A stretch of 49,805 nt of DNA from a virus. The translations under genes were made by a program, and so were the position numbers. The stretch is taken from positions 1-49,805 of IMG/VR virus record IMGVR_UViG_3300022927_000032, one strand, 5' to 3'. Below the pieces are notes generated by a model. It made no database searches, was not told the DNA's origin, and saw only the letters and a program-made list of their open reading frames with translations. Each line of letters begins with the position of its first letter. Within the stretch, counting starts at the first letter, position 1. Positions 5,888-26,768 of this stretch are shown here, in pieces.

Positions 5888-5928
5888 AAAGTGTCCTTAC
5901 AAAGTGTTTATTCAAAAAGGAGAGAATT

Positions 5929-6891: not shown

Positions 6892-6893
6892 AT

Positions 6894-7648: not shown

Positions 7649-8312
7649 TTTGTGGATAAGGGAGGGTTTAGCTGACCCTCTATCAGAATACTTAAATTAC
7701 TTAGTATCAAGAGGTGTGGATGAAAGCTGTAAAGTCAGCTTCCATTCTTGGCAGACTCATGAAAATATCAAGTGTACGAGATTCTTGAGTCAATATGGCA
7801 ATGGGGGTCGAGGTATCTCCTCTCATCTAGTTATACCTATCACCTCACCTAGAGGTGTTATCATAGGTATGGAGTCTAGAAAAATAATGCCAGATGGTTC
7901 TAAAAAAGTGATACAGTACAGAACTCTCTCTGCTCAATGGAATCCATATATACTTGGTGCAGAAGATTGTTTTAAAACCTTACATGAAGGTGGTGACCTA
8001 TGGGTAGTAGAGGGCATCTTTGATAAGGTTTCTTTAGATAAGGTTGTCTCAAAGTATGATTCTGTCATAGCAACCTTAAGGGCTGGTATGGATAGTCTAA
8101 CTCTTGAAATGATCTCAAGATACTATTCTAAGGCCAGTACCATTTACATCTGTTATGATAATGATGAGACAGGTCAAAAGAAAGCTAAGTGGTTGCAGAA
8201 AGAGATGCAAGCAAAGGGTATTAGGGCAGTAGTCTGGAAATACAGAGGGAAAGACCCTAATGAAGTCTGGTCAAAAGGTGGGGATCAAGCACTAAGGAGA
8301 ATGTTCCTTTAA
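7641..8312 (+). CDS. DnaG-type TOPRIM protein (primase-like, no zinc domain)
   Basis: 223 residues. HLVIPITSPRGVIIGMESR (62-80) resembles the segment before TOPRIM in DnaG and T7 gp4. The TOPRIM core follows: WVVEGIFDKVSLDK with E124, then YICYDNDETGQKKA with D173 and D175, then KYRGKDPNEVW. These acidic residues bind metal in primases. The N-terminal zinc-binding domain of DnaG is absent, as is a helicase domain, so it either relies on a partner or acts differently. Lone TOPRIM nucleases are an alternative, but the PI...G...G..SR segment favours primase ancestry. Start overlaps the previous gene. Confidence 0.75.
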   Translation: MNDLWIREGLADPLSEYLNYLVSRGVDESCKVSFHSWQTHENIKCTRFLSQYGNGGRGISSHLVIPITSPRGVIIGMESRKIMPDGSKKVIQYRTLSAQWNPYILGAEDCFKTLHEGGDLWVVEGIFDKVSLDKVVSKYDSVIATLRAGMDSLTLEMISRYYSKASTIYICYDNDETGQKKAKWLQKEMQAKGIRAVVWKYRGKDPNEVWSKGGDQALRRMFL

Positions 8313-8920
8313 TATAAGTCAACTAGAATAGGTTCAGGATTTCTAAAAGAAGCCTGCTTGATCCCATCTGACTTGCTGAAGAACATGCTTTTTATTTTCT
8401 TGTAAATACCAAAATCTACAAGAACTAAATAAGCCACCATACCTATGAGCATGAGCTTTGTTAGGAACAATCCTACATTAATAACAAAGAGAGATCCCAT
8501 AGATAGCTTACAAGCATAAAAAAGGCCATGTGATAAAGCGACCCAGAAATAGTCATCCGCATGAATTATGCTTTGCTTTGCTTTTTTAGAAGCTCTGTCG
8601 AATCTACTTTCCCACAAATCAGAGAGGTATTTTACCCTAGCCTTGAAAGTAGGCAGGCGGTTGACATTTGAAAGGACTTCTTTTTCCAATTCAGAAGGAT
8701 TCTTTCCTACTCTATCAATCTCTCTTCCGATAGATCCCAGACTGTCTAGGTCACTCTCTTCCAAAAGTTCTTTCATATTCTTGAGTTCTTTTCTGTTTTG
8801 CTTTCTGGTTAGGTTTAAGCTTTTTTCGAACTCTTCAATCTTCTCTTCTATCCAGCTCCCTGCAACTTTGCTTTCAAGTCTGGCAATCCTCATTTCTAGG
8901 CTTCTTATTTTCTTATTCAT
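8309..8920 (-). CDS. Tagged membrane protein A (LExRIAxLE N-terminus)
   Basis: 203 residues from the ATG at 8920; the reading frame extends further but would run into the divergent promoter region, and a ribosome site (AAAGGG) fits this start. Residues 3-16 (KKIRSLEMRIARLE) nearly equal the start of the divergent neighbour. A long helical charged domain follows. Residues about 128-172 hold two hydrophobic segments (FWVALSHGLFYACKLSMGSL; LFLTKLMLIGMVAYLVLVDF). Only the tag is shared with its neighbours, so it may be a targeting signal. Function unknown. The gene ends overlapping the primase-like gene by 4 nt. Confidence 0.65.
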   Translation of the reverse strand: MNKKIRSLEMRIARLESKVAGSWIEEKIEEFEKSLNLTRKQNRKELKNMKELLEESDLDSLGSIGREIDRVGKNPSELEKEVLSNVNRLPTFKARVKYLSDLWESRFDRASKKAKQSIIHADDYFWVALSHGLFYACKLSMGSLFVINVGLFLTKLMLIGMVAYLVLVDFGIYKKIKSMFFSKSDGIKQASFRNPEPILVDLY

Positions 8921-12430: not shown

Positions 12431-13816
12431 ATGGACAGTATGATTGATAGAGTCCTTAGAAAATATGCTAAAAAGTCATTAAACAGGAAAATAGATGATG
12501 CCTTTAAAACATGGAAAGGCAAGAGTTCTCTTAGTAATCAAGAAATTGGCTATTGGACACTTAAGTCTTGGAAGAACTTTTCGAAGAAAGATATTTCTAA
12601 AGACCCTTTGAAGAGAAAGAGGAAAGAATACGCAAAGAGAGTTTTTAAAAAATTCGAAGAAGCTATTTTGAAAGATGAGGGAAAAAAGCAAGAGTCTCAA
12701 GATGGTTCTTTGGAAGAGAGCCAAGTAGTAAAGCTTCTTAGTAAGGAAAACTATGGATTACCTAAGAAGTTCTACAGTAAAAACAAATTGATGATCAAAG
12801 ATGTTAACCCCTCTGAAGAAGATGTTAAGAAGTTAGCTTCTGAAATAGGAGAGCTTTTTAAGACACCAGGTCACCAGAAAGGTTTAATAGGGTCTTTCGT
12901 TAGAGGTCAAAAGTTTTTCTTAAAGCGAAATGCTAAAATGATGAGTCAGTTTTACAAACAGACACATCAATTCTTTAAGAAAGAAAAGGATGAGAAGGAT
13001 TTAAGCCTAGAATCTAAAATTAAGGAAAACTTAGAAAGTAACCCAGAGCTACATAGGACTTCAAAGCTACTTGCTGCAAATTGGACTCAATCTACAATTA
13101 TTCCAAAAGTAGGTTTGCTTTTAGGTGTTGGGGGCAAGTTAAGCATAGGCTCTGCTGTAGCAGCCTCTGTCTCGACAGCAGTAGGTGGCTCTGCTGCTGT
13201 GGCTACTATGCCTGCATGGATTCCTTTGCTGGCTGGAGTCGCAGTTTCTTCCATTGTGATGGGTCAAGTGTTTAAAAAGACTGTCAAGCAATTAAATAAA
13301 ATGGAAGGTGGTAAGAGAGGTTATGAGTCCCTTGCTGCTGACATCTATGCAGGTTATGCAACTCCAGAGAAAATAGAAAAAGAGTATAAGGCAAAGATGG
13401 AAGAGATACTAAACTCTAAAGGTGACCCTAAAGCAAAGAAAAAGAAGATTCTTAAACTCTATGAGAAGTTTGACAAAGATGTCAGACCCTCAATAGATAA
13501 AGGTCTATATCTTTTAGGTGAGTCAGAGGGTGCAGCTTCTGGAGATTACTTAAAAAGAGGTGCTGAAGATGATCTTCCTGTTTACTTGCAACTCAAACAT
13601 CTTAAGCAATCTTATGAGTCTGAAGATATAATCTTGGAAACTTTAAAGAGTGACTCAAAAGACATCTCAAAAGAAGCACAGAAACTACTTTCTGGAAAAG
13701 AAGAGCTTCCTAAAGATGTCATGGACAGTATAAAGGGTTTTGTTGACTCTGGTAAGAAAGCAAGCTCTCAGAAGGTGGCTCAACTATACCTTAACTCTCT
13801 TCAATCTCTCTTTTAG
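12431..13816 (+). CDS. Large helical protein with Ala/Gly hydrophobic hairpin
   Basis: 461 residues. Mostly lysine-rich helices, with one hydrophobic block at about residues 217-285 (IIPKVGLLLGVGGKLSIGSA, VAASVSTAVGGSAAVATMPA, WIPLLAGVAVSSIVMG) that looks like a glycine/alanine-rich membrane hairpin. A structurally similar layout is seen in some virion-borne or toxin-like proteins, but no family is recognised. It lacks the LExRIAxLE tag of its neighbours. Ribosome site AAGGAG. The 3' end overlaps the converging pentapeptide gene by 26 nt. Confidence 0.65.
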   Translation: MDSMIDRVLRKYAKKSLNRKIDDAFKTWKGKSSLSNQEIGYWTLKSWKNFSKKDISKDPLKRKRKEYAKRVFKKFEEAILKDEGKKQESQDGSLEESQVVKLLSKENYGLPKKFYSKNKLMIKDVNPSEEDVKKLASEIGELFKTPGHQKGLIGSFVRGQKFFLKRNAKMMSQFYKQTHQFFKKEKDEKDLSLESKIKENLESNPELHRTSKLLAANWTQSTIIPKVGLLLGVGGKLSIGSAVAASVSTAVGGSAAVATMPAWIPLLAGVAVSSIVMGQVFKKTVKQLNKMEGGKRGYESLAADIYAGYATPEKIEKEYKAKMEEILNSKGDPKAKKKKILKLYEKFDKDVRPSIDKGLYLLGESEGAASGDYLKRGAEDDLPVYLQLKHLKQSYESEDIILETLKSDSKDISKEAQKLLSGKEELPKDVMDSIKGFVDSGKKASSQKVAQLYLNSLQSLF

Positions 13817-14435
13817 TTTTTCTGTAGTATCTGAAAGCATCTTTAAACTTTAAGAACTTCTTGCCCTTACTTACTTCGATTGTACTCTTATAATAGTCAG
13901 TCAAAGAAGTAATTACCAAGTAATATGCTTTCCCATTCTTCGATTCTAGTTTAACTATTCTAAGTTCTTGATTGTTAGGTAATATGAAGTACTCACCCAC
14001 AAGCATTTCTTTAGAGGTCTTTCCTAAAATCCTCTTTTGGACTTCTCTTAGCTCTTGGAAAGTGTGTTCTATTCTTTGAGGTCTGAGACTCGAAAGCTGT
14101 CTCTTTAACAAGATCATTATCCTCGGTAGCTTCCTTCTTACAGTTTGTATCCTGTTTTCTTTTCCAGAGTCATTGCCAACTTCTTCTAAGATAGTGCCTA
14201 CTACAACTGTTCTCAGTAAAATAGTATTACTGAGAACAGCACCTGAAAGATTAGCACCTGTCAAATCGGCACTTGTCAAATCAGCATTAGAGAGATCTGC
14301 GTTCTCTAAGTTGGCATAAGAAAGATCCGCTCCTATGAGTCTTGAGCCTGAGAAGTTGGTGTTTTTCAGATCTTGTTCAGACAACTGTATTTCGTTCAAG
14401 ATTCTTCCTGACAAGTTCATTCCAGAGTAGTTCAT
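13791..14435 (-). CDS. Pentapeptide-repeat protein 1 with C-terminal beta domain
   Basis: 214 residues. Residues about 5-70 are A(D/N)LxxA repeats (GADLSYANLENADLSNADL, TSADLTGANLSGAVLSNTIL), which form a right-handed quadrilateral beta helix. A basic middle (about 85-130) is followed by a C-terminal domain starting VGEYFILPNNQELRIVKLE that resembles the ends of the pentapeptide proteins at 25938 and 27514 (pattern G(D/E)xxxxxxxxxxxxVIxV). The repeats may mimic DNA, as in Qnr/MfpA, but many pentapeptide proteins have no known role. Start at 14435 follows TTAGGAG. Confidence 0.75.
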   Translation of the reverse strand: MNYSGMNLSGRILNEIQLSEQDLKNTNFSGSRLIGADLSYANLENADLSNADLTSADLTGANLSGAVLSNTILLRTVVVGTILEEVGNDSGKENRIQTVRRKLPRIMILLKRQLSSLRPQRIEHTFQELREVQKRILGKTSKEMLVGEYFILPNNQELRIVKLESKNGKAYYLVITSLTDYYKSTIEVSKGKKFLKFKDAFRYYRKTKREIEES

Positions 14436-14487
14436 ATTTTCTCCTAATCTTTTTTACTTTTGTTGGTCATAAAGAGATAAAAAGATA

Positions 14488-14544
14488 CCCCCCTTATTAT
14501 CTTTGATAACTAACCTTATCAAAAACTGTATAGATTATAAGGAG
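14488..14544 (+). promoter_or_regulatory. C-run/TTGATAA leader, nested hairpins over SD
   Basis: Six C (14488-14493), 9 nt, TTGATAA (14503-14509). CCCCTTATTATC (14490-14501) pairs with GATTATAAGGAG (14533-14544) at 10 of 12 positions and covers the ribosome site. Inside it, TTTGATAA and TTATCAAA form a perfect 8-bp hairpin. Confidence 0.55.
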
Positions 14545-14550
14545 AAAACT

Positions 14551-14982
14551 ATGATTTACTTACTATCAAAGGAAGAGCTTGAGTCTCTTCGAGAAGATAT
14601 TAACAATCAACTTAAAATGTTTGAACCAGATTCTACTCGTGGGGCTAAATTCAAAGAAGCTCTTGATCAGTTAGTGTTGGATGTTGAAGAAGCAGAGGAA
14701 AAGGACTTTAAAAGCCTTCGAGAGCTGGATAAGCGACTTGGAGAGCTTGAGGCAGATCCTTACTACTCAAAGTTGTATAAGCGAGATTTAGACTCATTGT
14801 TTATGAGCATTGTAATCAAGCACAATGGCTTCTTTCGGGTGTTGTATATGCTGCTAGGTAAAAGGCGGTGTGGTTGGCACTTAAGCTTCAAGATGCGTAG
14901 AGTTCCTCGACATAGTGTTCGTTGGAATCTTTTCGGTCTAGGACAACAAAAAGATTCTGATGAAGACTCTGAGATTCGATAA
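14551..14982 (+). CDS. Hypothetical protein, 143 aa
   Basis: ATG at 14551 is chosen because AAGGAG lies 6 nt upstream; a TTG 16 codons earlier overlaps the TTGATAA element and is rejected. The N-terminal two thirds is acidic and helical (LSKEELESLREDINNQLKMF; LDQLVLDVEEAEEKDFKSL). The C-terminus is basic (KRRCGWHLSFKMRRVPRHSVRW), so it might contact nucleic acid or membrane. Family not recognised. The next gene follows after 26 nt. Confidence 0.65.
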   Translation: MIYLLSKEELESLREDINNQLKMFEPDSTRGAKFKEALDQLVLDVEEAEEKDFKSLRELDKRLGELEADPYYSKLYKRDLDSLFMSIVIKHNGFFRVLYMLLGKRRCGWHLSFKMRRVPRHSVRWNLFGLGQQKDSDEDSEIR

Positions 14983-15008
14983 CACTATAAACAAAGAAAG
15001 GAAATTCC

Positions 15009-15257
15009 ATGAATAGAACAAAGATGGTTTGGGCTGCTCTTGCACTTTTTTCACTTGGCACAATGATTATGCAACAAGTAAAGATTGTAAAGCAAAGCCG
15101 ACAAATTAACATCTTGCAGTCTATGGTAGCTACTCAAAATGGCAATATTTCAAGCCAGCATGAGAGCATTAATAGACTTCAAGAGCAGAACATCTCTCTA
15201 CAAGATGATTTAAATTCTTGTGAGGAATCTGCTATTCAACTTAATTTTAAACGTTAA
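15009..15257 (+). CDS. Small membrane-anchored coiled-coil protein
   Basis: 82 residues. A short basic start (MNRTK), one hydrophobic segment (MVWAALALFSLGTMIM, about 6-21) and then a predicted coiled coil with heptads (QINILQSMVATQNGNISSQ; INRLQEQNISLQDDLNSCEE). One cysteine near the end. The topology (N-in, coil outside) resembles an inner-membrane spanin (Rz-type), but no matching outer-membrane lipoprotein is seen, so this is only a possibility. A terminator follows. Confidence 0.6.
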   Translation: MNRTKMVWAALALFSLGTMIMQQVKIVKQSRQINILQSMVATQNGNISSQHESINRLQEQNISLQDDLNSCEESAIQLNFKR

Positions 15258-15275
15258 TTTAAAAGTTGATGCCTT

Positions 15276-15328
15276 GAGCCAATAGGCTCTTAGCCCTGCT
15301 TTCCATTTGGGAAGTGGGGCTTTTTTTT
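15276..15328 (+). terminator. Intrinsic terminator with upstream hairpin
   Basis: GAGCC (15276-15280) pairs with GGCTC (15285-15289). A second, longer hairpin from AGCCCTGCTTTCC to GGGAAGTGGGGCT (about 15292-15320) is followed by eight T. It ends the plus-strand unit at the point where the minus-strand gene 15668-15327 also ends. Confidence 0.75.
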
Positions 15329-15668
15329 ATCCTCTAACAATGACTTTTAAATGAGCCACACCTCTTTTAGAGCCATTTTGGATAACAAGGTCATCAACTT
15401 TCGTAGAGATCACTTCAAAGTCAGTGAGGTTTCTGGCTTTTAGTTTTGCTTGGACTTGTTCAATCACCTCATCACCACAAATATGGACATTACTGCTGTT
15501 CTCCAAATCTTTGAGGTTGATATTAAAGGGTACAGAAAGTCGGAGAACCATATTGAACCCATCTACTTCGTAATTTGAATCTAAGAAGTCTGGGTCTTGA
15601 ATTAGAGATGTCAGTCTCTTTAAGTTATTTCGGGGGGTGCTCATAAGTTTTTTGATATATCTGATCAT
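15327..15668 (-). CDS. Hypothetical protein, 113 aa
   Basis: ATG at 15668 follows AAAAGGAGATTAAA. Basic N-terminus (IRYIKKLMSTPRNNLKRL), then alternating beta-like segments (GFNMVLRLSVPFNINLKDL; DFEVISTKVDDLVI; GVAHLKVIVRG). A small alpha/beta domain is likely. Function unknown. The 205 nt between it and the gene at 15874 holds AT-rich promoter-like sequence, including GTTTATAATCAG, and the hairpin at 15842. Confidence 0.6.
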   Translation of the reverse strand: MIRYIKKLMSTPRNNLKRLTSLIQDPDFLDSNYEVDGFNMVLRLSVPFNINLKDLENSSNVHICGDEVIEQVQAKLKARNLTDFEVISTKVDDLVIQNGSKRGVAHLKVIVRG

Positions 15669-15841
15669 TTTAATCTCCTTTTAATTTTTAAAGTATTTTC
15701 CCTTTTTATATGATCAGAAACCTAACTTCATAACTTATTCTTACCTCTCGCTAGTCTTTTATACAGGATATAGAGCAGATCACATAGAAAGAGATCATTG
15801 CATACAGGCCAGGAGTTATCTAATAAGCTGTTTATAATCAG

Positions 15842-15869
15842 CCCTCTTTTGACAAAGACACAAGGAGGG
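15842..15869 (+). promoter_or_regulatory. Hairpin over the SD of the split structural gene
   Basis: CCCTCTTTTG (15842-15851) pairs with CAAGGAGGG (15861-15869) with one bulge and one G-U pair, hiding AAGGAGGG of the gene at 15874. A TATAAT-like element (about 15832-15837) lies upstream of the hairpin rather than inside it, so this one would not free the site by late initiation. Confidence 0.4.
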
Positions 15870-15873
15870 TAAA

Positions 15874-16374
15874 ATGGCTGTAGCTTTTAAAAGAAACCAA
15901 ATACTAGGCAGGGGAGACTTAGATATCTTCCTCACTAATTCAAATGGCAATGTCTCAAATGCTGCCGAGATTACTTATGCCCTTTACTTTGTAGAGCCTG
16001 GACCACCAGAAGCAGATGTTCTTATCGGTGATCCACAGCGTATTCCAGAGAACCCATCTGTTGGGGAATACTATGCTTCTGTTAGGATTCCTACAACAGC
16101 TACTTATGGTAGATACAGGATAAGGTGGACTCTTAAAGAGTTTGTTAATAGTAACTCACAGACAGTAGTACAAGAGTTTGGTGTTGTTGCAGAAAATGCT
16201 GTTTTGGGTCTTCAGCTTACAGAAGCTCAGAAGTCTATGGTCTATAAGTTGCGTATGCTTTTAAGAGATCAGTGTCTTGCTGGAGAAGAACTCGTCACTG
16301 TTGATGCTGACGGTGAAAAGATCACACTCCCTATCGAAGAACTATATGACATCATAGGAGATGGAAATGCTTGA
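15874..16374 (+). CDS. Virion-type protein, N-extein plus short intein N-half
   Basis: 166 residues. Residues 1-133 are the N-terminal part of a likely virion protein (MAVAFKRNQILGRGDLDIF...YRIRWTLKEF...LRMLLRDQ). Cys134 starts an intein block A (CLAGEELVTVDADGEK), and the frame stops after only 33 intein residues. The rest of the intein and the host protein are in the frame at 17233. After trans-splicing the fragment RDQ would join CPDKYYHF. The extein continues with YSIGGISLDI... and SFGPAVGRGVLSPRNF, phage structural-protein-like, possibly neck or head-tail. A premature stop is an alternative, but the intein signals on both sides argue against it. Confidence 0.8.
   Translation: MAVAFKRNQILGRGDLDIFLTNSNGNVSNAAEITYALYFVEPGPPEADVLIGDPQRIPENPSVGEYYASVRIPTTATYGRYRIRWTLKEFVNSNSQTVVQEFGVVAENAVLGLQLTEAQKSMVYKLRMLLRDQCLAGEELVTVDADGEKITLPIEELYDIIGDGNA
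16273..16371 (+). other. Atypical split intein, N-terminal half (33 aa)
   Basis: Cys1 at 16273-16275, block A CLAGEELVTVD, then EKITLPIEELYDII. Most split inteins break after about 100 residues; this one breaks after 33, as in the rare AceL-TerL type. The 3' end overlaps the nuclease gene by 14 nt. Confidence 0.8.
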
Positions 16375-17236
16375 AGAACTGCTAGTTAAGTTTGACCTCA
16401 CAATAGAGCAACTGAACAAAAAAGGTCGAGTAGCTAAAGAGATTGTAGAAAAGCGTTCTGCTCTTGTTTCACATCTCCATAAGCAAGGGTTCTCTTGGAA
16501 AGAGATGACCGAAATCACAGGTCTTTCCAACGGGTCTATTCAGAGGCTGACCAAAGCGAAAGGCTGTAAAGCTGTTCAAGACAAACGCAAGAAGTTAGGT
16601 GCTAACGCTGGTCGATCCACCAAAGGTATGGATAGGTCTGAGCAACTAAAAAAACAATGGGCTAAAGGAGACTTTGATTTCCATCGGGGGAGAGTTCGAC
16701 CACAACATGAGCGTGATAAACTTAAAAAGGCTTGGGAAGATCCCAAACTTAGATTGTTAGCCTCCGAGAACGCTAAGAAGTATGTGTGGGGAAATTCAGA
16801 TGTGAAACAGAAGCTCATGGACTTTCACCACGATCCCGAAGAAAGAGCAAGGAGATCGAACGCTCAAGCGATTAGGATGAAAGAGAACCCGACACCTTAC
16901 CTTAGAGGCAAAACCTCAATAGAGGCTACACCTAAAGGTACTAAAGATGAGGTTCGTGTTCGCTCAAGCTATGAAGCAAAGACAATCTCCATCTTAGAGT
17001 CCGACCCTAATGTCAAAAGCTATACCTATGAGCCAATATACAAAGTTGCTGGAAGAACAATACTCCCCGACTTTGTTGTCCACTATCAAGATGGATCTAC
17101 TACTCTTGTTGAAGTTAAACCACAATGGGCTTTAAACCGAGAAGATGTTATCGCCAGGTTAGCCCTATCTCAAAAAGTTGCTGATGATAATGGTTGGTCT
17201 TACCAAACATGGACTGAAAAGGAGTTGGGACTATGA
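16361..17236 (+). CDS. Free-standing PD-(D/E)XK homing endonuclease between intein halves
   Basis: 291 residues. A helix-turn-helix-like region (about 33-67: HKQGFSWKEMTEITGLSNGS) is followed by a basic, repeat-like DNA-binding stretch (WEDPKLRLLASENAKKYVWG; FHHDPEERARRSNAQA). The C-terminal nuclease domain (about 200-291) contains ILPDFVVHYQDGSTTLVEVK, giving D237, E251 and K253, the classic catalytic trio, in a TnsA-like setting. It starts inside the end of the N-half gene and its stop overlaps the ATG of the C-half gene by 4 nt, so all three are translated in series. It would spread the intein by cutting intein-less copies of the gene. Confidence 0.8.
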   Translation: MEMLEELLVKFDLTIEQLNKKGRVAKEIVEKRSALVSHLHKQGFSWKEMTEITGLSNGSIQRLTKAKGCKAVQDKRKKLGANAGRSTKGMDRSEQLKKQWAKGDFDFHRGRVRPQHERDKLKKAWEDPKLRLLASENAKKYVWGNSDVKQKLMDFHHDPEERARRSNAQAIRMKENPTPYLRGKTSIEATPKGTKDEVRVRSSYEAKTISILESDPNVKSYTYEPIYKVAGRTILPDFVVHYQDGSTTLVEVKPQWALNREDVIARLALSQKVADDNGWSYQTWTEKELGL

Positions 17237-17619
17237 CATCTCAAGAACAAGCACAGAAGATTAAAGACGCTTTCAAAAAAAGGAAGCTATCAATCAAATC
17301 TATGGACACTCAAGGTGATTTCTCTTGGAAGCAAATCTCTAAAGCTCATAAGAACCCGACACCTATTGAACCCATTTATAAAATCACCACAGAGCAAGGT
17401 AAACATCTCACTATCACAGGTGGACACCGAGTCTATATGTCTCCTAACCTTTGTGTTCCAGCAGAGGAGCTGTCCGTAGGACTTAGCTTACAGACATCAC
17501 AAGGAGCAACTAAGATTTCCAATATCGAGGTCATCGAAAACAGACCCTTTATGTTCGACCTTACTGTTGAGGAGAACCATAACCTTGTACTCGAAGGTTC
17601 TGATGTGGTCGTTCATAAC
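17233..17619 (+). other. Split intein, C-terminal half (129 aa)
   Basis: Ends VVVHN, with Cys as the +1 residue at 17620-17622. Contains a block B (TGGHRVY) normally in the N-half, so the break is between blocks A and B. No endonuclease domain; that role is in the gene between the halves. Confidence 0.8.
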
Positions 17620-18624
17620 TGCCCAGACAAGTATTACCATTTTAGGCCACCAGAGCATGAGGCTAACATCGGTTCTTATAATCAAGTCTTTGGTCAAGTT
17701 TGGGAAGATGAAGAGTTTCTTGAGTACCTTGAGCGAGCACTCGACTGGTGGAACATGCAACCGCCAGAGACAGAGGATCTTCACACATTAGATCAGCTTG
17801 TTGCTCAGAAGCCTGCATGGAGAACACCTATTTTACAGGGTGCTATTCAGTTTGCAGCAATGGCATTACAGGCAAATTGGATTGTAGATGAATTCTCGGT
17901 TAGAGGAGATACTGACTTGGAGGTTTTACTTCCTAGTGGAGAAAAGGTCAAGCTCACTATTGAGGAGCTACATGAGATTATAAAAGAGGAGCGTATGATG
18001 GATAATTTGACCAAACAAGCAATCAAACAGGCTTTCTTACAAGGAGAGCTTAAGGTTCTTTCCGTTGATAATGAAACCAGCCAAGTAGGCTACCAAGTGA
18101 TTTCTGATGTGATGAAGCACCATACTCCACATAAAAAGATACTAAAAGTAGAACTCGATAATGGGCAGTTCGTTATTGCTACTCAAGACCATTCCCTCTT
18201 CACCATTGAAGAGGGCAAGATCAAATCCATTGAAACAGAAAACTTTTCTGTTGGAGACACCCTCGCTATCGTTGAGGGTGGTGAAGTTAAAGGGTGTATT
18301 ATCACTAACATCTCTCAAGAGGAAGACTGTGAATACACTTATGATCTTTGTGTGCCTATAAACGAGAACTTCGTACTTGCTAATGGCATACTAGCACACA
18401 ACTCATACTCTATTGGAGGTATTTCTCTCGACATAGACAGGTCTAGTAAGTACGAGGGTTTGAAATCCTCAGCAGAGCAGATGTGGTCTACTTCTGTAGA
18501 AGCCAAGGCTAGAACAACAAAGTTCATAAGGGGTTTGAGGCAACCGAAATATGGTGTGGGAATAAGATCGAGTTTTGGGCCTGCGGTGGGTCGTGGTGTA
18601 TTGAGTCCGAGAAACTTTATTTGA
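17233..18624 (+). CDS. Intein C-half, middle extein, second intein, C-extein
   Basis: 463 residues with four parts. 1-129: intein C-half (block B-like TITGGHRVYMS, block F FDLTVEENHNLVLEGSDV, block G VVHN). 130-221: host protein from Cys130 (CPDKYYHFRPPEHEANIGSY). 222-390: a second, complete mini-intein. 391-463: host protein (SYSIGGISLDIDRSSKYEG...VGIRSSFGPAVGRGVLSPRNFI). Trans-splicing of the first and cis-splicing of the second would give a 298-residue protein. The ATG overlaps the nuclease stop by 4 nt. The 3' end seems to have been replaced (see 18620). Confidence 0.85.
   Translation: MTSQEQAQKIKDAFKKRKLSIKSMDTQGDFSWKQISKAHKNPTPIEPIYKITTEQGKHLTITGGHRVYMSPNLCVPAEELSVGLSLQTSQGATKISNIEVIENRPFMFDLTVEENHNLVLEGSDVVVHNCPDKYYHFRPPEHEANIGSYNQVFGQVWEDEEFLEYLERALDWWNMQPPETEDLHTLDQLVAQKPAWRTPILQGAIQFAAMALQANWIVDEFSVRGDTDLEVLLPSGEKVKLTIEELHEIIKEERMMDNLTKQAIKQAFLQGELKVLSVDNETSQVGYQVISDVMKHHTPHKKILKVELDNGQFVIATQDHSLFTIEEGKIKSIETENFSVGDTLAIVEGGEVKGCIITNISQEEDCEYTYDLCVPINENFVLANGILAHNSYSIGGISLDIDRSSKYEGLKSSAEQMWSTSVEAKARTTKFIRGLRQPKYGVGIRSSFGPAVGRGVLSPRNFI
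17896..18402 (+). other. Second intein, contiguous, Ser at position 1 (169 aa)
   Basis: Begins SVRGDTDLEVLLPSGEK after extein VDEF, has block B ATQDHSLFTI, block F YTYDLCVPINENFVLANG, ends LAHN with Ser +1 (18403). Serine in place of the usual Cys1 implies an oxygen rather than sulfur nucleophile. It is similar in layout to the split intein. At the equivalent of the split point it contains GAGGAG (17986-17991) and two ATG codons (17995, 17998). Confidence 0.8.
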
Positions 18625-18735
18625 ACCCTATGTAGGCAGAGGAGTATTGAGGTAAGCAACGAAAGTATGGTGTTGGTATCTGTACTTTGAGTGAGTACTT
18701 TGAACCCTATGTGGGCAGAGGGGTGAGAAAAAAAT
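18620..18735 (+). repeat. Two leftover copies of the gene's 3' end
   Basis: TTTGAACCCTATGTAGGCAG (18620) and TTTGAACCCTATGTGGGCAG (18699) are near-identical, 79 nt apart. Translated, they read FEPYVGRGVLR-stop and KYGVGICTLSEYFEPYVGRG followed by VRKKS-stop. Both match the real end of the upstream gene (KYGVGIRSSFGPAVGRGVL). The tail of the gene has thus been duplicated and partly replaced, with old ends left as scars. Confidence 0.7.
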
Positions 18736-18759
18736 CTTGACCACTTGCTTGCTTTTCAT

Positions 18760-18798
18760 ATAAGTTAATCTCAACTCAAGAATAAAGGATTAACTTAT
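18760..18798 (+). promoter_or_regulatory. SD/start hairpin of the Vsr-like endonuclease gene
   Basis: ATAAGTTAATC (18760-18770) is a perfect 11-bp match to GATTAACTTAT (18788-18798), which overlaps AAAGGA and includes the first two bases of the ATG at 18797. CATATAAGT, a promoter-like element, is in the 5' arm. T4's intron endonuclease I-TevI is controlled by an equivalent hairpin. Confidence 0.6.
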
Positions 18799-20071
18799 GG
18801 CTACTTGCCCTCACTGTAAAAGAGATTTCAAAACAGCAATAATTAGTGGTAGACACCGCAAGGTGTGTTGGCCAGATTGGAAGCCCCAACCAATTACACC
18901 ATGTATCTGTGGACATGAATCCACATCAAACACACAGATGAAAAGACATAAGAAAGAATGCGAGGTATGGCAAGGTCGAGATAAGAAAGCGATCTCAAAG
19001 TTCAGACGCAAACAAACGATGAAGAATCGTTATGGGGTTGAGAATCCAGCCCATAGCAAAGAGTCTGTAGAGAAGCGTAAACAGACTAACCTCAAGCGTT
19101 ATGGTGCAGAGAACCCTTTCTCAAAGGAGAGTAGCCTTTTTGAAAAGGTGCAAGATGCTCTTGATGGTAAGCGACCAGTCTTAAAGGGTAAGGATAACCC
19201 TTTTGCTTGGGAGAGCGTACAGGATAAGATCAAGCAGACGAACCTTGAGAGATATGGTGTGGTCAACCCTCAACAGAATGATGTGGTCAAGGCTAAGACA
19301 GAGGCTACTAATCTTGAGAGGTATGGTGGAACGCTATTGGGATCACCAGAGCTTAGGGCTAAGATTGAGGCAACGAATATAGAGCGTTATGGTGTGCCTA
19401 TCCCTAGCATGAGTAAAGAAGTCATGGATAGGGTTGTAGCGACTAATATGGAGCGATATGGTGTACCTTATACGAGTGCAGTGGGGGAGTTTAGACAGAA
19501 GCAACTCAAGACGATGATTGAGAACTATGGAAGCCACTACTTTGCGTCTGAGCAAGGCAAGGGGGAGATTAGGGCTACGATGGTGGATCGTTATGGTGTT
19601 GAGTTTCCTGGTGCTATTGATGGTCATTGGGATAAGGTGCAAGAGACATTGAAAGATAGGTATGGTGTGGAGTTCCCTATCTTGCTTATGAATCAGAAAG
19701 AGATGAACAAGTTTGAGTCAAGGGTAGCCTCATATAGCGACTCGCTCACCTTTACAGGTAATGGTGCATATTGGAGATTTCTTCCAAGCAAGAAGAACTT
19801 TGATGGCTCGATTGGTGGCTACAAGAATCCAGACTTTGTAGTTTGTGTGAGTGATGATCCCGAACATCCTTACATGGGTGCCACAAAGGTAGTGGAGTGT
19901 TTTGGTCAGTATTGGCACTCACAAGCGTTAACAGGGATGAGTAAAGAGGAGCATGAGCGTAATACGATAGAGGCTTATGCGGAGGTAGGGCTTGATTGCC
20001 TTGTGATTTGGGAGGGAGACATTCGTTCAGATGAGGGTTCAGTGATTGAGAAGGTGGAGAGGTTCTGCTAG
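18797..20071 (+). CDS. Vsr-like homing endonuclease with RYGV repeats
   Basis: 424 residues. The N-terminus has two zinc-finger-like units (CPHCKRDF...H...C; CICGHESTSNTQMKRHKKEC). Residues about 75-300 consist of repeated TNxERYGVxxP units (nine or more), DNA-binding repeats typical of phage homing endonucleases. The C-terminal domain has NPDFVV (D346), KVVECFGQYWHS (E367, H374) and LVIWEGDIR (W405-E406), which is the Vsr fold. This nuclease family was first described with fractured genes that carry split inteins, and here it sits directly after one. It probably targets the neighbouring structural gene. Confidence 0.85.
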   Translation: MATCPHCKRDFKTAIISGRHRKVCWPDWKPQPITPCICGHESTSNTQMKRHKKECEVWQGRDKKAISKFRRKQTMKNRYGVENPAHSKESVEKRKQTNLKRYGAENPFSKESSLFEKVQDALDGKRPVLKGKDNPFAWESVQDKIKQTNLERYGVVNPQQNDVVKAKTEATNLERYGGTLLGSPELRAKIEATNIERYGVPIPSMSKEVMDRVVATNMERYGVPYTSAVGEFRQKQLKTMIENYGSHYFASEQGKGEIRATMVDRYGVEFPGAIDGHWDKVQETLKDRYGVEFPILLMNQKEMNKFESRVASYSDSLTFTGNGAYWRFLPSKKNFDGSIGGYKNPDFVVCVSDDPEHPYMGATKVVECFGQYWHSQALTGMSKEEHERNTIEAYAEVGLDCLVIWEGDIRSDEGSVIEKVERFC

Positions 20072-20132
20072 TCAGATGCTTGATGAGCTTCAGAGAGAAA
20101 TAGATTCTCTAAAGAGAGACCTAAATAAAAAA

Positions 20133-20190
20133 CCCCCCCCAGAATCCTATTGATAAGAGGTGTATTACAATAACTATTATTAAAAGGATT
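20133..20190 (+). promoter_or_regulatory. C-run/TTGATAA leader with SD hairpin
   Basis: Eight C (20133-20140), 9 nt, TTGATAA (20150-20156). AATCCTATTGATAA (20143-20156) pairs with TTATTAAAAGGATT (20177-20190) over 14 positions with one mismatch and one G-U pair. The 3' arm holds the AAAAGGA site of the gene at 20195. Confidence 0.6.
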
Positions 20191-20194
20191 TTAT

Positions 20195-21139
20195 ATGAAC
20201 ATTTCTAAAAATCATTTATCTGAGGCATTCCCCCTTGAAGGTCAAAACCCATTAAAATGTGAGCCATTGGCTTTTAGAGGAACTGTTGAGGATATTGACT
20301 TTGAAGAAAGTGACTTTGAAGGTATTACTGCGTTAAACACTTATTATAAAGGTGTGCATTTTAAAGGTTGTACTTTCAATCTTACTTCTTTTTTCAAGTT
20401 TGTGGACTGCACTTTCACTGATGTTTCTTTTAAATACATCAGTGAAGAACGCTATAAGAAAGATAATGAAGAAGATAGGAGAAGTCTCTTTATCAACTGC
20501 AAGTTTGTAAACACAACTTTTAAAAAAGTAAGTCTGGCTGGTGTAAGATTTGATAATTGCAGTTTAGAGAACATCGCAATCATATCTTCATGTTTTGAAG
20601 CAGTTGATTTTGAGACTTCAACCTTAAAGAATGTGAAGTTTGTAAGCTGTTTTGTTAAGAACCTCTTGGTTTCAAGTGGAGAAAAAGTTTCTTTTGTTGC
20701 CTGTAAGACTACTGCAAACAAACATAAGCCAGCCACAATTGAGTTTCTAAATACACGAAGCAATTCTAAACAGAAGATTGTTAGCCCTAAGTTAGAGCTG
20801 CTGGATGCAACAGATAACCAAAGCCATGTCTTTGCAGGGAAGGGTGCATATAACCAATATGTTGCTTTTCAGCAACATAGGACATATTCTTATTTTTATG
20901 CAACTACCTTAAAAAGATTATATGAGAAAGCCAGATTAGCCGCCCCACAGGGGTTACATCTTCACGAAAAACTAAAACTTCTTGATGAGAAAGACGCAAG
21001 GGAAAAGAAAGCCTTTCGGAAGAAGCTGAGAAAAAATATTCTTGGGCTTATCCTTATTGGACTTAGTTCCTATCTTCTATATTCAAATCAAGAAGCTGTT
21101 CTTCAGTCTATTGAATACCTTAAAAACCTTAGCTTCTAA
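20195..21139 (+). CDS. Pentapeptide-like repeat protein 2, C-terminal membrane anchor
   Basis: 314 residues. Residues about 30-165 are divergent pentapeptide-type repeats with F/C at the central position (VHFKGCTFNLTSFFKFVDCTF; VRFDNCSLENIAI). A basic region (about 215-285) follows and then one hydrophobic segment near the C-terminus (NILGLILIGLSSYLLYS). The C-tail anchor distinguishes it from the other four pentapeptide genes. It might hold the beta-helix at the inner membrane. A strong terminator follows. Confidence 0.7.
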   Translation: MNISKNHLSEAFPLEGQNPLKCEPLAFRGTVEDIDFEESDFEGITALNTYYKGVHFKGCTFNLTSFFKFVDCTFTDVSFKYISEERYKKDNEEDRRSLFINCKFVNTTFKKVSLAGVRFDNCSLENIAIISSCFEAVDFETSTLKNVKFVSCFVKNLLVSSGEKVSFVACKTTANKHKPATIEFLNTRSNSKQKIVSPKLELLDATDNQSHVFAGKGAYNQYVAFQQHRTYSYFYATTLKRLYEKARLAAPQGLHLHEKLKLLDEKDAREKKAFRKKLRKNILGLILIGLSSYLLYSNQEAVLQSIEYLKNLSF

Positions 21140-22574: not shown

Positions 22575-22632
22575 TATCTTGCTCTCTTAGTTCTATAATG
22601 GGTCTTACTATTTAACTAAAGAGAGGAAGATA
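22575..22632 (+). promoter_or_regulatory. Long SD/start hairpin before the nuclease-methylase gene
   Basis: TATCTTGCTCTCTTAGTT (22575-22592) pairs with AACTAAAGAGAGGAAGATA (22614-22632), about 17 bp with one mismatch and one bulge. The 3' arm carries AGAGAGGAAG and the first base of the ATG. TATAAT lies at the start of the loop. Confidence 0.65.
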
Positions 22633-25169
22633 TGATTTTTTATTCCGAGAAAGATGTTGAGGTTCATTTTCGCAAGGTTTTAGAAGATGCAACAGGAGAA
22701 CATTTTAAAACACTTCGTAAGGTAAAAAACTCAAAAGGAAGACATTGGGAAACAGATGGTGTAATAGAATGGCAAACACCTTCAAAAACACCTGTTAGAG
22801 TTCTTTTAGAAGCCAAATTTGGTGCTGACTTTAAGAAAGCAACTTCAAGAAGTTCGGTTTTAGCTCAAGCTTTGTTTTACTGTAAGCGTTTTGAGGAACA
22901 GGGAGATGACTTACCAAATGTAATATTTATTGGAGATGAGGAATACTGTTTCGCAGTTCCTATGTCTTCCCTTAAATCTTTTTTAGAAGCAGAGGTAGAT
23001 TGGTCAAGAGCACCATCAAATCCAGATCCTTCTTTAGAAGTTAATGTAGATACTCATTTAGAAAGTACTCTTGGAGTAGATGGTGAGCATTTAAAGCAAC
23101 TTTGTGAGGGATTGGCTAGTGCTTGTCTTCAAAAGGTAAAGCCTTCACCTCAAAACATCTCTGCAATGTATCAATATTGGGTAGATCAAATATTCTTAGA
23201 GGGTCACTCATACACACCTGTTGAGATGACAGACATTTTTTTTGGTTGTGTGTTCTACTCAGAGATTGACGAACATTATGTTCAAGAACACAGGGTTAAA
23301 AAGAATACTATCATGATGAGTGGTAAAGAGTACAACATCAATGTTTCAGCTATGAGAGGTTTTTTCCAGCGTAGGGAAAGAGGTCTTTCTAAAAAAGATG
23401 TGGATGAACTTGTTTCCATGAGAGACCGAATTATAGAAGATGATACAAGACGCAGGCAAGGTGCTTTTTATACCCCTACTCTATGGGTAGCAGAAGCTCA
23501 TAAAGAAATGGAGAAAGAGTTAGGGGAAGATTGGAGGGATGAATGTGTTGTCTGGGATTGTTGCTCTGGGACAGGGAATATTACTCGAGACTATGATTTT
23601 CAAAATCTAATTCTTTCCACAGCAGAGAAGCCAGATGTTGATGTTATTAAAAGAGAGTGTTACAACGAGGGTGCATTTGTATTCCAATATGACTTCTTGA
23701 ATCCAGAAGATGAAAGTCCTTTCTTTACAGGTGACTCTGACAACGTATTACCTTTAAAGGTAAAAAAGATGTTAAAAAAGGCTGCTGAGGAAGATAAGAG
23801 GATAGTATTTTTAATAAACCCTCCTTATGCAGAGGATGGTGTTGCAGGGGCTAAAGGAAATACTCGTAAAGGGGTTGCAAGTAACACTCTTGTGAACAGT
23901 GAGATGCCAAAGTTAGGCAGAGCAAATAGACAATTATATGCCCAATTCCTATACCAATGTGAAAAGGTAAGTAGAGATTATGGTTTTGACAAAAAGACCA
24001 TAGGGATTTTCTGCCCTTCCATATTTATGTCCTCTGGGTCTTTTAGTAAGTTTAGAGAATGGTGGTATGCAAAGTATTCATACAAGTCAGGGTTTTTGTT
24101 TCAGGCATCACACTTTGCTGACGTTAAAGGGTCTTGGGGTATTTCCTTTACACTTTGGAGTGAAGGTAATACAGCATTAGAAAGCAATCTTCCTCTTTTA
24201 TTAAAAGACACATGTCAAGCTGAGAAAGTTAGTGTTATTGGGGATAAGAATTTATATTCACCCTCAGCATCTTCGGCATCTTCTTGGGTTTCAGCTCTTT
24301 CACCTGCTTCTTCTAATATAGACACACCAAAGTTTTCTAGTGGTCTTAAAGTTAAAGAATCTGTAAGCAATGACAAAGGTATTGATCAAGATGCTTTGGG
24401 GGTCATGTGCAATATGGGCAATAGTTTAATGAAGTCTGCTACAGATGTTTATTTTATATCTGGAAAGCCCTCTCATAAAGGATGCTGTAATTTCCCTTTG
24501 GTTGAAGGAGAAGGGTGGAGAAGGGCTATTTCCTTATTCTCAGCTAGAAAGCTTGTTTCATCTAATTGGGTTAACCAGAAAGATGAATACCTAATACCTG
24601 ATGTAAGCAAAGAGGGTTATGAAGATTGGGTTGATGATTGCCATGTATATGCTCTTTTACACTCTTCTAATAACATAGTTTCAATGAGAAGCCTCGATTA
24701 CAAATCTAAGAAGTGGGATATTTATAATCACTTCTTTTGGATGAGTAGAGCAGAGGCTATGGAGTTGTATGGAGAGAGCAAGGAAGCTAAGTCTCTTTAT
24801 CGAGATGCTAGAAACAACCCAATCTCTTATAATAAGAGTTCTGGGCAAGTTAAAGAGTGGAGAAAAAATGGAGATCCTTACTTCTCATATATTCTCCCTA
24901 AGCTAACTCTTTCTTCACTCTCAAGAGAAATCTTGAGTGATCTTCAAAAGCTCTTTATTGAGACTATACCTTATAGGTCGCAGATAACACATGAAAAAGG
25001 CTTAGACTTACACTTAGGCTCATGGGATGCTGGCATCTACCAGCTTAATAAGATTTGGAAGCAATTACCTATTTTGAATAAAAAGTGGGAAGCTTTGAAA
25101 GTAAAGCACAGACAACTTGGTAAAAACCTAGAGCATGGAGTATATACTTTTGGGTTTTTGAAGAAATGA
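22632..25169 (+). CDS. Type IIG-like restriction-modification protein (nuclease + N6-adenine MTase)
   Basis: 845 residues. Residues 36-66 hold a PD-(D/E)XK-type nuclease motif (TDGVIEWQ...VLLEAKFG: D42, E60, K62). An MTase domain follows, starting at RRQGAFYTPTLWV (about 280), with AdoMet motif I WDCCSGTGNITRD (about 308-320) and the catalytic N396-PPY. Residues about 520-845 would be the target recognition part. This order (nuclease, helical linker, methylase, recognition) is that of type IIG/IIL (MmeI-like) enzymes. Phage roles could be self-methylation against host restriction, or attack on competing DNA. It overlaps the next pentapeptide gene by 4 nt. Confidence 0.78.
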   Translation: MIFYSEKDVEVHFRKVLEDATGEHFKTLRKVKNSKGRHWETDGVIEWQTPSKTPVRVLLEAKFGADFKKATSRSSVLAQALFYCKRFEEQGDDLPNVIFIGDEEYCFAVPMSSLKSFLEAEVDWSRAPSNPDPSLEVNVDTHLESTLGVDGEHLKQLCEGLASACLQKVKPSPQNISAMYQYWVDQIFLEGHSYTPVEMTDIFFGCVFYSEIDEHYVQEHRVKKNTIMMSGKEYNINVSAMRGFFQRRERGLSKKDVDELVSMRDRIIEDDTRRRQGAFYTPTLWVAEAHKEMEKELGEDWRDECVVWDCCSGTGNITRDYDFQNLILSTAEKPDVDVIKRECYNEGAFVFQYDFLNPEDESPFFTGDSDNVLPLKVKKMLKKAAEEDKRIVFLINPPYAEDGVAGAKGNTRKGVASNTLVNSEMPKLGRANRQLYAQFLYQCEKVSRDYGFDKKTIGIFCPSIFMSSGSFSKFREWWYAKYSYKSGFLFQASHFADVKGSWGISFTLWSEGNTALESNLPLLLKDTCQAEKVSVIGDKNLYSPSASSASSWVSALSPASSNIDTPKFSSGLKVKESVSNDKGIDQDALGVMCNMGNSLMKSATDVYFISGKPSHKGCCNFPLVEGEGWRRAISLFSARKLVSSNWVNQKDEYLIPDVSKEGYEDWVDDCHVYALLHSSNNIVSMRSLDYKSKKWDIYNHFFWMSRAEAMELYGESKEAKSLYRDARNNPISYNKSSGQVKEWRKNGDPYFSYILPKLTLSSLSREILSDLQKLFIETIPYRSQITHEKGLDLHLGSWDAGIYQLNKIWKQLPILNKKWEALKVKHRQLGKNLEHGVYTFGFLKK

Positions 25170-25879
25170 GTTTGGGTATGAAGCCTAGAGAAAAATATGA
25201 GGATTTATTTTTCCACAACGAAGACTTCCCTATCCTTGATCTAAATGTACATTTAGTGAAGTGTCATTTCTATGCTTCAAGGTTTAAGAAGACTTCTTTC
25301 AAAGGGTCTATTTTAGAGGACTGTACTTTTGACTACACTATCTTTAGTAGGTGTAACTTTGATGGGGCTGTACTTAAGGATAGTGATGTCTCTGTGTACA
25401 CAAAGCAGGTCTATTTTAGAGGTTGTAGCTTTAAAGGTGCTACTATATCACTTCTGGTAGATGGGGATGCTGTTTTTGACAACTGCAACCTAGAAGGTGC
25501 GACTTTTAAAGATTGTGACTTTGCCTGTGCAAGTTTTCAAGGCAGCAACTGTAAAGGGGTAGACTTTACAGGCATTACATATAACTACCAAGAAGCTCAA
25601 GATCAGCATTTCAATGGATATAACCATGACCCTCGCTTATTGTTTCAAGGTGCTGATCTCTCTGGGGCTAAGTTTGATGGGTTTTCTTTAAACCATGCAC
25701 AATTTGAGGGTGCTATTTTGGATGGTGCTAGCTTTAGAGGGTGTGACTTAAGTTCAGAGCTTGTAGATCTCACAGGTTGGGGCTGTTGTGACTTTTATTC
25801 TGAGGGGACTAGCTTTAAGGGTTGTGACATGAGTAAAGCAGACTTCACAGATGCTGATCTTACGGGTGTTTTGAAATAG
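25166..25879 (+). CDS. Pentapeptide-repeat protein 3
   Basis: 237 residues, repeats through nearly the whole length (HFYASRFKKTSFKGSILEDC; CNLEGATFKDCDFACASFQG; CDMSKADFTDADLTGVLK). Central positions are F or L, as the family needs. It has no C-terminal extra domain. ATGA overlap with the nuclease-methylase gene means translational coupling, so the two may work together, for example a DNA mimic that restrains the nuclease (speculation). Confidence 0.8.
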   Translation: MSLGMKPREKYEDLFFHNEDFPILDLNVHLVKCHFYASRFKKTSFKGSILEDCTFDYTIFSRCNFDGAVLKDSDVSVYTKQVYFRGCSFKGATISLLVDGDAVFDNCNLEGATFKDCDFACASFQGSNCKGVDFTGITYNYQEAQDQHFNGYNHDPRLLFQGADLSGAKFDGFSLNHAQFEGAILDGASFRGCDLSSELVDLTGWGCCDFYSEGTSFKGCDMSKADFTDADLTGVLK

Positions 25880-25883: not shown

Positions 25884-25938
25884 TTTATTTCTTCTATACT
25901 TCTATATTCGATAATAGATAGTAAAAAGGAGAAATAAA
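25884..25938 (+). promoter_or_regulatory. SD/start hairpin with GATAAT in loop
   Basis: TTTATTTCTTCT (25884-25895) pairs with AGGAGAAATAAA (25927-25938), 12 bp with one G-U pair, covering AAGGAG and the first base of the ATG. Inner TCTAT pairs with ATAGA. TTCGATAATAG is in the loop. Confidence 0.6.
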
Positions 25939-26768
25939 TGACTAAACTACCTACAAAAATATCAGTTTATTGGGACTATCAAGACAGCCTATACGAAATT
26001 CTCGAAGAAGAAGAGATTGAGAATCTAACAGTAGAAGAGAAGCTGGAAGAGCTGGGTCTTGAAAGAGAAATCGAAATTCCAAGAAACATACTTCTAGAGA
26101 TGGCTCTCACTCCAAAAGATGATAGAGAATTCCTTCTTTCGGATTATTTGTCAGACACTTATGGCTACACCCATTTTGGCTGGGTTGTTATGGAAGAAAA
26201 AGCTCTGAAAGATATGGAATTTAGAAATGTCTATGTCGGAGACTTGGAAGACAGCTTCGCATCTTTAAACCTAGATGGGTTAAGGCTAAGTAAGTCTGAA
26301 ATGCATGTTACTTTCAAAGATGTTCACTTTAAGGGTGCTGTTTTTACAGGGTCTGATATTAAGTCTTCCTCATTTATGAATTGTGGAATGGCTTCTGCTA
26401 ACTTTACGGGGTGTGATCTTAGAGAAGTCTACTTTGCTTACTGTGACCTTAAAGATGTAGACTTCACAGGTGCTGATGTAAAAGGTGCTATCTTTAAGAA
26501 ATGTAAAAACTTGACCATAGAGCAACTTAGAAAAGTAAAGTCTGGGTTCATAGATATTGAAATAGGAGATATTTTAAAATCGACAACCTCCACAGAACAA
26601 TATGTAGTGATTGCTGTTAAAGGCGACAAGATTAAAATGAGAAACATAAGAACAGGTCGTAAATATATTAGGAAAGCTGTTTTTGATAACTCTGGGCATC
26701 AGGGCAAAGTTATGATTTCAGTGATAGATAATCGTAGAAACATCTACTATAACTTTAAGAGGAAGTAA
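25938..26768 (+). CDS. Pentapeptide-repeat protein 4 with C-terminal beta domain
   Basis: 276 residues. Residues 1-95 are an acidic N-terminal domain (YDQDSLYEILEEEEIENL type sequence). Residues about 96-190 are the repeats (VHFKGAVFTGSDIKSSSFMN; CDLKDVDFTGADVKGAIF). The C-terminal 80 residues begin IEIGDILKSTTSTEQYVVIAV and end in basic, Tyr-rich sequence (NRRNIYYNFKRK). This end resembles those of the genes at 13791 and 27514. It may be a small beta-barrel for binding. AAGGAG precedes the ATG within a hairpin. Confidence 0.75.
   Translation: MTKLPTKISVYWDYQDSLYEILEEEEIENLTVEEKLEELGLEREIEIPRNILLEMALTPKDDREFLLSDYLSDTYGYTHFGWVVMEEKALKDMEFRNVYVGDLEDSFASLNLDGLRLSKSEMHVTFKDVHFKGAVFTGSDIKSSSFMNCGMASANFTGCDLREVYFAYCDLKDVDFTGADVKGAIFKKCKNLTIEQLRKVKSGFIDIEIGDILKSTTSTEQYVVIAVKGDKIKMRNIRTGRKYIRKAVFDNSGHQGKVMISVIDNRRNIYYNFKRK

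Follow-up and report, generated by a model that had tools for sequence, protein, structure and literature searches.

Two nuclease-carrying split-intein cassettes in a probable neck gene of huge phages, and an intein that looks healed

This study concerns a phage gene broken by inteins at two sites, at the first of which the intein is divided between two genes with a nuclease gene between its halves. The gene lies at 15874-18624 of the virus record IMGVR_UViG_3300022927_000032, the whole of which (49,805 bases) is here called the window; a baseplate wedge gene in it (phrog_6, 5.1e-32) marks a tailed phage. A host protein (extein) of 298 residues is encoded in two genes (Table 1). The first open reading frame (ORF; 15874-16374, 166 aa) consists of 133 extein residues followed by 33 intein residues beginning with Cys, the N-terminal intein part (IntN); the second (17233-18624, 463 aa) consists of the 129-residue C-terminal part (IntC), 92 extein residues, a second, contiguous intein of 169 residues and 73 further extein residues. 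An earlier note on this DNA had read the N-half as ending after 33 intein residues, the split as lying between blocks A and B, the gap as filled by a free-standing PD-(D/E)XK nuclease gene, and the joined extein as residues 1-133 of the first product plus 130-221 and 391-463 of the second, all of which is borne out, IntC carrying the block B motif TxxH. It had also given gene overlaps of 14 and 4 nucleotides (nt). The 4-nt overlap between the nuclease and IntC genes (ATGA) stands; that of 14 nt between N-half and nuclease genes holds if the first ATG is used and becomes 8 nt with the second in-frame ATG at 16367, which is the likelier start since an AGGAG lies six bases upstream and the start agrees with that of a remnant ORF in a related contig, L037 (L numbers are our labels for loci).

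The site-1 halves are, to judge from their motifs and model matches, parts of one split intein, beyond what chance would give. Joined, they align in one piece with the contiguous intein that L034 carries at site 1 of this gene (47% identity over all 162 residues), and the match to the intein-N-terminal model TIGR01445 goes from 3.6e-5 for the C-half alone to 5.1e-10 for the joined halves, which also match an intein C-terminal model (1.8e-5) and Pfam Intein_splicing (2.6e-11). Complementary parts in two ORFs, Cys or Ser as the first residue, TxxH, a C-terminal Asn and Cys, Ser or Thr in the +1 position are all present, and the free-standing endonuclease gene that separates the halves makes this a fractured gene. 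IntN has a net charge of -8 in the window and the first 45 residues of IntC one of +6; at site 1 in the six loci computed the values were -5 to -8 and +1 to +6, and this complementarity was absent at site 2, where IntC ranged from -6 to +4 (10 loci). We also considered an assembly error, which is unlikely because the window is identical to L036, a 312-kb contig, over 12,402 nt with 0 mismatches, and because the split recurs in diverged contigs.

Relatives were sought in IMG/VR with the joined extein (38 loci) and with a profile built from intact relatives (69 loci, the contigs being partly shared). The extein profile was then applied to 85 loci, one per contig except that L105 and L110 are one contig and the window and L036 one virus: 52 are unbroken across both sites (two of these, L020 and L021, stop at the contig end after about residue 252, shortly past site 2), 31 are interrupted, and the truncated L106 and L038 were excluded from the counts. 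Contigs with the same match tables were counted once, as one distinct locus. The unbroken homologue for which the earlier note had called thus exists in 52 contigs (40 distinct sequences), which carry the gene as one open frame straight through both sites; homologues whose N-half ends at residue 166, which would have spoken against a split intein, were not found among them. The extein pattern found in stretches of bacterial genome contigs encodes a relative in 0 of 46.

The residue in the +1 position follows occupancy closely. In the unbroken genes it is Asn at site 1 and Asp at site 2 in all 52 (protein context of the empty site ..LLRDQ/NPDKYYHF..). At occupied sites it is Cys (5 of 8 distinct loci) or Ser (3 of 8) at site 1, and Ser (16 of the 19 measured) or Thr (3) at site 2. 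Singly occupied genes keep Asp at an empty site 2 (4/4) and, at an empty site 1, have Asn in 13 of 16 and Asp, Ala and Arg once each, never Cys, Ser or Thr (L124 falls short of the site). None of the 52 empty genes showed the Cys, Ser or Thr footprint of a lost intein. Native intein sites typically precede Cys, Ser or Thr (PMC3359363). Since the empty alleles here have none of these residues in the +1 position, the cassette appears to bring its +1 nucleophile codon along; each intein would therefore carry its own +1 residue into an insertion site that has no splicing nucleophile, leaving the host protein permanently changed.

The interrupted genes occur in several states (Table 1), covering 8 distinct loci for site 1 and 21 for site 2. 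Over both sites IntN has 30-43 residues (30-35 at site 1) and IntC about 130, and the N-half/nuclease junctions range from a 77-nt overlap to a 30-nt gap when starts are chosen mechanically. Ribosome-binding-like motifs, which are short and were scored without a control, precede 23 of the 24 starts inspected. The split form is kept in LR745208, where the extein pieces are just 55-68% identical. Both inteins are split in L037, L123 and L126, so that one protein would there be assembled from three polypeptides by two trans-splicing events. In L130 (3880-5205) and L131 (4995-6308) the site-2 nuclease is fused to IntC beside a separate IntN ORF, possibly an intermediate between an intein-embedded and a free-standing nuclease. 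The records of L036, L032, L037, L043, L029, L123, L126 and L128 hold more intein-like matches in other, often long ORFs, that of L123 ten intein-like matches altogether.

Table 1. Features of the interrupted gene in the window, states of the two sites among relatives, and genes in three pieces
Feature	Position or loci	Strand	Basis or remark
Window, N-extein, host residues 1-133	15874..16272	+	Colinear with the gene in 52 unbroken contigs
Window, site-1 IntN, 33 aa, Cys1, stop codon included	16273..16374	+	Intein comparison
Window, TnsA-like PD-(D/E)XK nuclease, 291 aa, free-standing	16361..17236 (likelier start 16367)	+	PF08722 2.3e-8; 1t0f fold match
Window, site-1 IntC, 129 aa, block B TxxH, C-terminal HN (..VVVHN)	17233..17619	+	AGGAG 8 nt before ATG
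Window, middle extein, 92 aa, first residue Cys+1	17620..17895	+	Asn there in 52 contigs empty at both sites
Window, site-2 contiguous intein, 169 aa, Ser1, HN, Ser+1	17896..18402	+	Groups with split relatives in intein tree
Window, putative healing scar at presumed former IntN/IntC fusion point, retains AGGAGCGTATGATG	17982..18000	+	DNA comparison with L027 and L037
Window, C-extein, 73 aa, stop codon included	18403..18624	+	Comparison with relatives
Window, diverged repeat copies of host gene 3' end	18620..18726	+	Measured in window; outside both inteins
Window, DUF7487/phrog_3339 homing-endonuclease-like gene, free-standing	18797..20071	+	Just 3' of host gene
Site 1 split, with TnsA-like nuclease	6 distinct loci: window, L031, L043 (LR745208, 485 kb), L105, L123, L126		
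Site 1 split, nuclease shrunk to 33 codons	L037		
Site 1 contiguous, without nuclease	L034		
Site 2 split, with separate Vsr-like nuclease	17 loci		L028 and L125 cut by contig ends
Site 2 nuclease fused in frame to IntC	L130, L131		
Site 2 contiguous	Window, L103		
Three-piece gene, L123 (222-kb contig)	2850-3341; nuclease 3301-4233; 4223-4996; nuclease within 4656-5942; 5900-6571 (likelier C-half start 5939)		
Three-piece gene, L126 (104-kb contig)	2901-3398; nuclease 3355-4293; 4262-5008; nuclease 4965-5936; 5920-6549		
Three-piece gene, L037 (297-kb contig)	5516-6019; remnant 6012-6113; 6110-6880; nuclease 6880-7827; 7824-8453		

The two sites harbour different nucleases. That of site 1 in the window has N-terminal helices with a helix-turn-helix-like stretch and a C-terminal core in which E205, D237, E251 and K253, invariant in all six aligned nucleases, would be the catalytic residues to judge from the fold. 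It matches Pfam TnsA_N (PF08722) and its structure model (predicted local distance difference test, pLDDT, 72.8) has TnsA (1t0f, E 1.9e-4) as best match in the PDB; the NCBIfam model TnsA_like gives 7.7e-10, yet stays under its cut-off (38.6 of 110 bits), and a profile search of solved structures returned three weak, irrelevant matches. With its E, D, E, K core in a PD-(D/E)XK fold the enzyme is TnsA-like and falls outside the Vsr-like (EDxHD) family, just as the earlier note had suspected. The site-2 nuclease of L027 scores under the cut-offs of the Vsr models (PF03852, 1.9e-5, 24.8 of 27 bits; TIGR00632, 30.9 of 97.85) and above that of DUF559. All full-length relatives found of the site-1 nuclease (L040-L042, L044, L110, L123, L126) lie at site 1, and a scan with the site-2 nuclease gave 47 loci, the 21 near-full-length ones of which (L111-L131, near-identical contigs included) all lie at site 2.

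Nuclease and intein have evidently travelled together. The window and L031 agree at 91.1% of third codon positions in the site-1 nuclease and at 94.6% in IntC, but at 40.6% in the extein; for L027 and L037 the corresponding figures are 80.6% in the site-2 nuclease, 88.2% in IntC and 51.3% in the extein. The extein DNA of L031 and L027 is 88.4% identical, yet their occupancy is opposite. On a quick extein tree (+1 columns kept in; L124, L125 and L028 left out) eight changes are needed for the 8 occupied site-1 rows and eight for the 18 occupied site-2 rows, and the intein tree separates site-1 from site-2 inteins as two clades (support 100/100), each with its own nuclease type. Movement between homologous sites and empty alleles, the marks of a homing cassette, are both found, and these comparisons show the cassettes to be mobile between diverged phages. 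One might instead suppose that the nuclease has some other role in the phage, such as head completion or the exclusion of rivals, and is merely located there: its domain also matches the phage 'head closure' family phrog_218 (4.8e-11), and three of the four other phage records that it matches carry the annotation 'head completion protein'. We consider this unlikely, given that the full-length relatives of the enzyme were found only at site 1 with the site-1 intein, that it accompanies the intein in transfers between diverged phages, and that it is reduced (L037) or absent (L034) in some carriers of the intein.

Some cassettes have lost their nuclease, in two different ways. At site 1 of L037 the stretch between two GAAAAG repeats is gone by comparison with the window, leaving a nuclease of 33 codons, and the start/stop overlap and the split persist despite this loss. 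At site 2 of the window, which reads ..AAAAGAGGAG|CGTATGATGG.. where the L027 counterpart has ..AAAAGAGGAGGGTGAGGAGTAATG (nuclease) GCAAAGGAGCGTATGATGG.., the difference fits a deletion of 952 nt (L027 lengths) between two copies of AGGAG, restoring the frame. The second copy is the ribosome-binding-like motif of the C-half; the scar retains AGGAGCGTATGATG, as found at the separate C-half start in L027 and L037, and the joined gene has an internal AGGAGCGTATG start. Split inteins are usually thought to derive from contiguous ones (PMC12707363), and the contiguous intein of the window could accordingly be ancestral and its split relatives derived, with no healing. In favour of this, the intein tree has no inferred root and the contiguous intein of L103 is not firmly placed among the site-2 inteins. 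It is nonetheless distinctly unlikely, since the window intein pairs with the split intein of L027 (96/83) inside a clade of four (100/99) whose other three members are split, and since the window carries AGGAGCGTATGATG from the start region of a separate C-half. On the whole intein tree, for which no root was inferred, the contiguous state requires three changes. From tree and scar together, the window's site-2 intein, now contiguous, appears to be a split intein that has healed, the direction of change probably being from split to contiguous. The three contiguous inteins were also put to an approximately unbiased (AU) test (p 1.6e-49), which was dropped as evidence of healing; it is uninformative on this point because these inteins come from both sites, which already form separate clades.

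Taken together, these observations are very probably explained by two nuclease-carrying split-intein cassettes that entered a probable neck gene at two fixed positions and later underwent nuclease loss or healing. At each site the nuclease gene is lodged between a short IntN and a long IntC. The pieces would be translated separately from neighbouring, mostly overlapping genes; IntN and IntC would then come together and join the extein pieces by trans-splicing to give the complete protein. When a co-infecting phage has an empty site, the nuclease most likely cuts it, and repair would then copy the whole cassette, the +1 Cys, Ser or Thr codon included. Subsequent loss of the nuclease through short deletions may either leave a remnant and a still split intein, as at site 1 of L037, or fuse the frames into a contiguous intein with a scar, as at site 2 of the window. 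It is likely, with somewhat less assurance, that one virion protein is made from three polypeptides by two split inteins acting in series (both nucleases being present in L123 and L126 and one in L037), that the insertion sites are highly conserved and without a nucleophile, and that alleles pass through a cycle from empty to split to decayed or healed.

The proposal that the halves remain unspliced, as a decaying pseudogene or as two polypeptides acting as separate subunits, draws on the fact that splicing is here deduced from sequence, and a reductase gene split by a homing endonuclease into two working peptides has been mentioned (PMC10448857). It is very unlikely in view of the two open halves with intact Cys1, TxxH, His-Asn and Cys+1, of splice-junction nucleophiles that follow occupancy without exception where measured, of the persistence of the split form in LR745208 and of the ribosome-binding-like motifs described above. 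Rescue at the level of RNA or ribosome, with a group I intron or programmed frameshifting joining the halves and the intein similarity incidental, has a precedent in another clade of huge phages, whose genes are fragmented by group I introns and endonuclease genes (PMC12363816, preprint), and is most improbable here: the intein blocks that the insert encodes on either side are complete, intein models match the joined product, no Rfam match at E<=0.1 was found in 14000-21000 of the window, which led us to reject a group I intron or structured RNA there, and a common slippery site is unlikely because the junctions vary.

Several points weigh against the cassette model. Splicing, cutting and expression at these loci are read from the DNA and are to that extent presumptive. 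The IntC start at site 1 of L126 is the one start of 24 that has no ribosome-binding-like motif, and the penultimate His of the site-1 intein is replaced in L105, L123 and L126 (by Lys, Ser and Ser), although Gly, Lys or Ser in this position has been reported for inteins of mycobacteriophages (PMC5050341). No clear co-conversion tract was found around site 1 in L031, and after site 2 in L027 there is only a short candidate of about 40 nt. The other 26 of the 47 loci in the site-2 nuclease scan are partial matches with no match to the host gene (L148 and L153 among them each show a short intein-like match close by), and the site-1 nuclease domain has weaker partial matches elsewhere, in L145 and four phage records. 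The occupancy counts are biased, many site-2 loci having been retrieved by way of their nuclease, so that the site-2 numbers are not frequencies. Finally, the matches behind the assignment of the host protein are weak.

This host is probably a neck (head-tail connector) protein of huge phages. Its nearest annotated relative is the 'head-tail connector protein' of Tunturi_5 (26%, tblastn 2e-21), three genes before a minor tail protein, with tail terminator and sheath further on; this match and the tail-gene neighbourhood make the 'virion-type' host of the earlier note plausible, short of proof. The match to the connector phrog_17327 is weak (0.015), and the extein profile matched no solved structure by sequence. 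The quality of the extein structure model is too low for a fold to be assigned firmly (pLDDT 66.9, predicted template-modelling score, pTM, 0.40): its first matches in the PDB are transglutaminases (template-modelling score about 0.2), and in a viral library phage proteins are ranked, the first, an unnamed one, at 4.1e-10 and the fourth, gp165 of Bacillus phage G, at 4.3e-7. A distant paralogue of its N-terminal domain lies upstream of the host gene in L024 (651-959), L034 (666-962), L118, L125, L126, L128 and L129.

Downstream, the repeats of the 3' end that separate the stop codon from the DUF7487 gene are also seen by eye in L031, L027 and L004; L002 and L003 have no DUF7487 gene and, by eye, no such copies. 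The DUF7487 gene and the repeats may together be a third homing element, free-standing, by which the end of the gene was replaced. Elsewhere in the window are a GIY-YIG endonuclease gene whose N-terminal part is endonuclease-VII-like (203-1378), five pentapeptide-repeat-like ORFs (13791-14435, 20195-21139, 25166-25879, 25938-26768 and 27514-28782, the family match having been run for 20195-21139 alone), and an ORF at 28854-30380 that may encode a methionyl-tRNA synthetase, going by its motifs. An 845-aa protein (22632-25169) matched no phrog (E<=0.001) or Pfam family (E<=0.01); by eye it has a nuclease-like N-terminus and a methyltransferase-type NPPY motif, and it is perhaps a restriction-modification enzyme.

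Fractured genes with free nucleases, short IntN parts, the homing cycle and multi-fragment genes of huge phages are already known. As far as we searched the literature, a TnsA-like nuclease between split-intein halves, a pair of cassettes in one gene, from which three-piece proteins would result, and an apparent return of a split intein to the contiguous form are new: to judge by title, nothing came up that links TnsA to intein homing, and no description of a natural three-piece split-intein gene was found, which is not proof of absence. Related genomes display invasion, decay and apparent healing side by side, and since one gene has empty, split, nuclease-decayed, nuclease-fused and re-fused alleles, the whole cycle, return included, can be tested. 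If true, this would be a direct case of split inteins reverting to contiguous ones. Evolved intein pairs, of Cys1 and Ser1 types, that must not cross-react in one protein are also what three-part protein ligation needs.

The closest parallel is with the fractured genes reportedly described by Dassa in 2009, in which the halves of a split intein are said to be encoded by neighbouring genes, separated by a free-standing nuclease gene. The layout of halves plus nuclease is the same, and the site-2 nuclease of the relatives resembles Vsr; what differs here is the TnsA-like nuclease of site 1, the split between blocks A and B, the two independent cassettes per gene, and the decayed, fused and healed states. 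The site-1 nuclease shares its core fold and catalytic residues with TnsA of Tn7 (1t0f) and the head-completion nucleases of phrog_218, and differs from them in a helical, probably DNA-binding N-terminal part and in the confinement of the full-length relatives found to the neighbourhood of the site-1 intein. A short IntN with a long IntC is also seen in atypically split inteins of the terminase (TerL) and of a PolB-type polymerase. IntN has 25 residues in AceL-TerL, 37 in GOS-TerL and 15 in PolB16 OarG (PMC11766414, PMC10189870); here the host is a neck-like protein, nuclease genes are present, and the same inteins also occur as contiguous alleles. The Jug huge phages likewise have multi-fragment genes with inserted endonucleases or intein domains, such as nrdD in four fragments, but mostly group I introns are involved, the nrdD insertions are described just as commonly coding for endonucleases or intein domains, and split-intein anatomy or healing is not described in the part of the preprint available (PMC12363816, preprint). 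Finally, the empty, invaded and nuclease-decayed alleles and the transfer between diverged hosts are those of the intein homing cycle (PMC3229294); there, nuclease domains and mini-inteins are involved, whereas in the present case a separate gene encodes the nuclease, the intein itself is split, and healing would re-join it.

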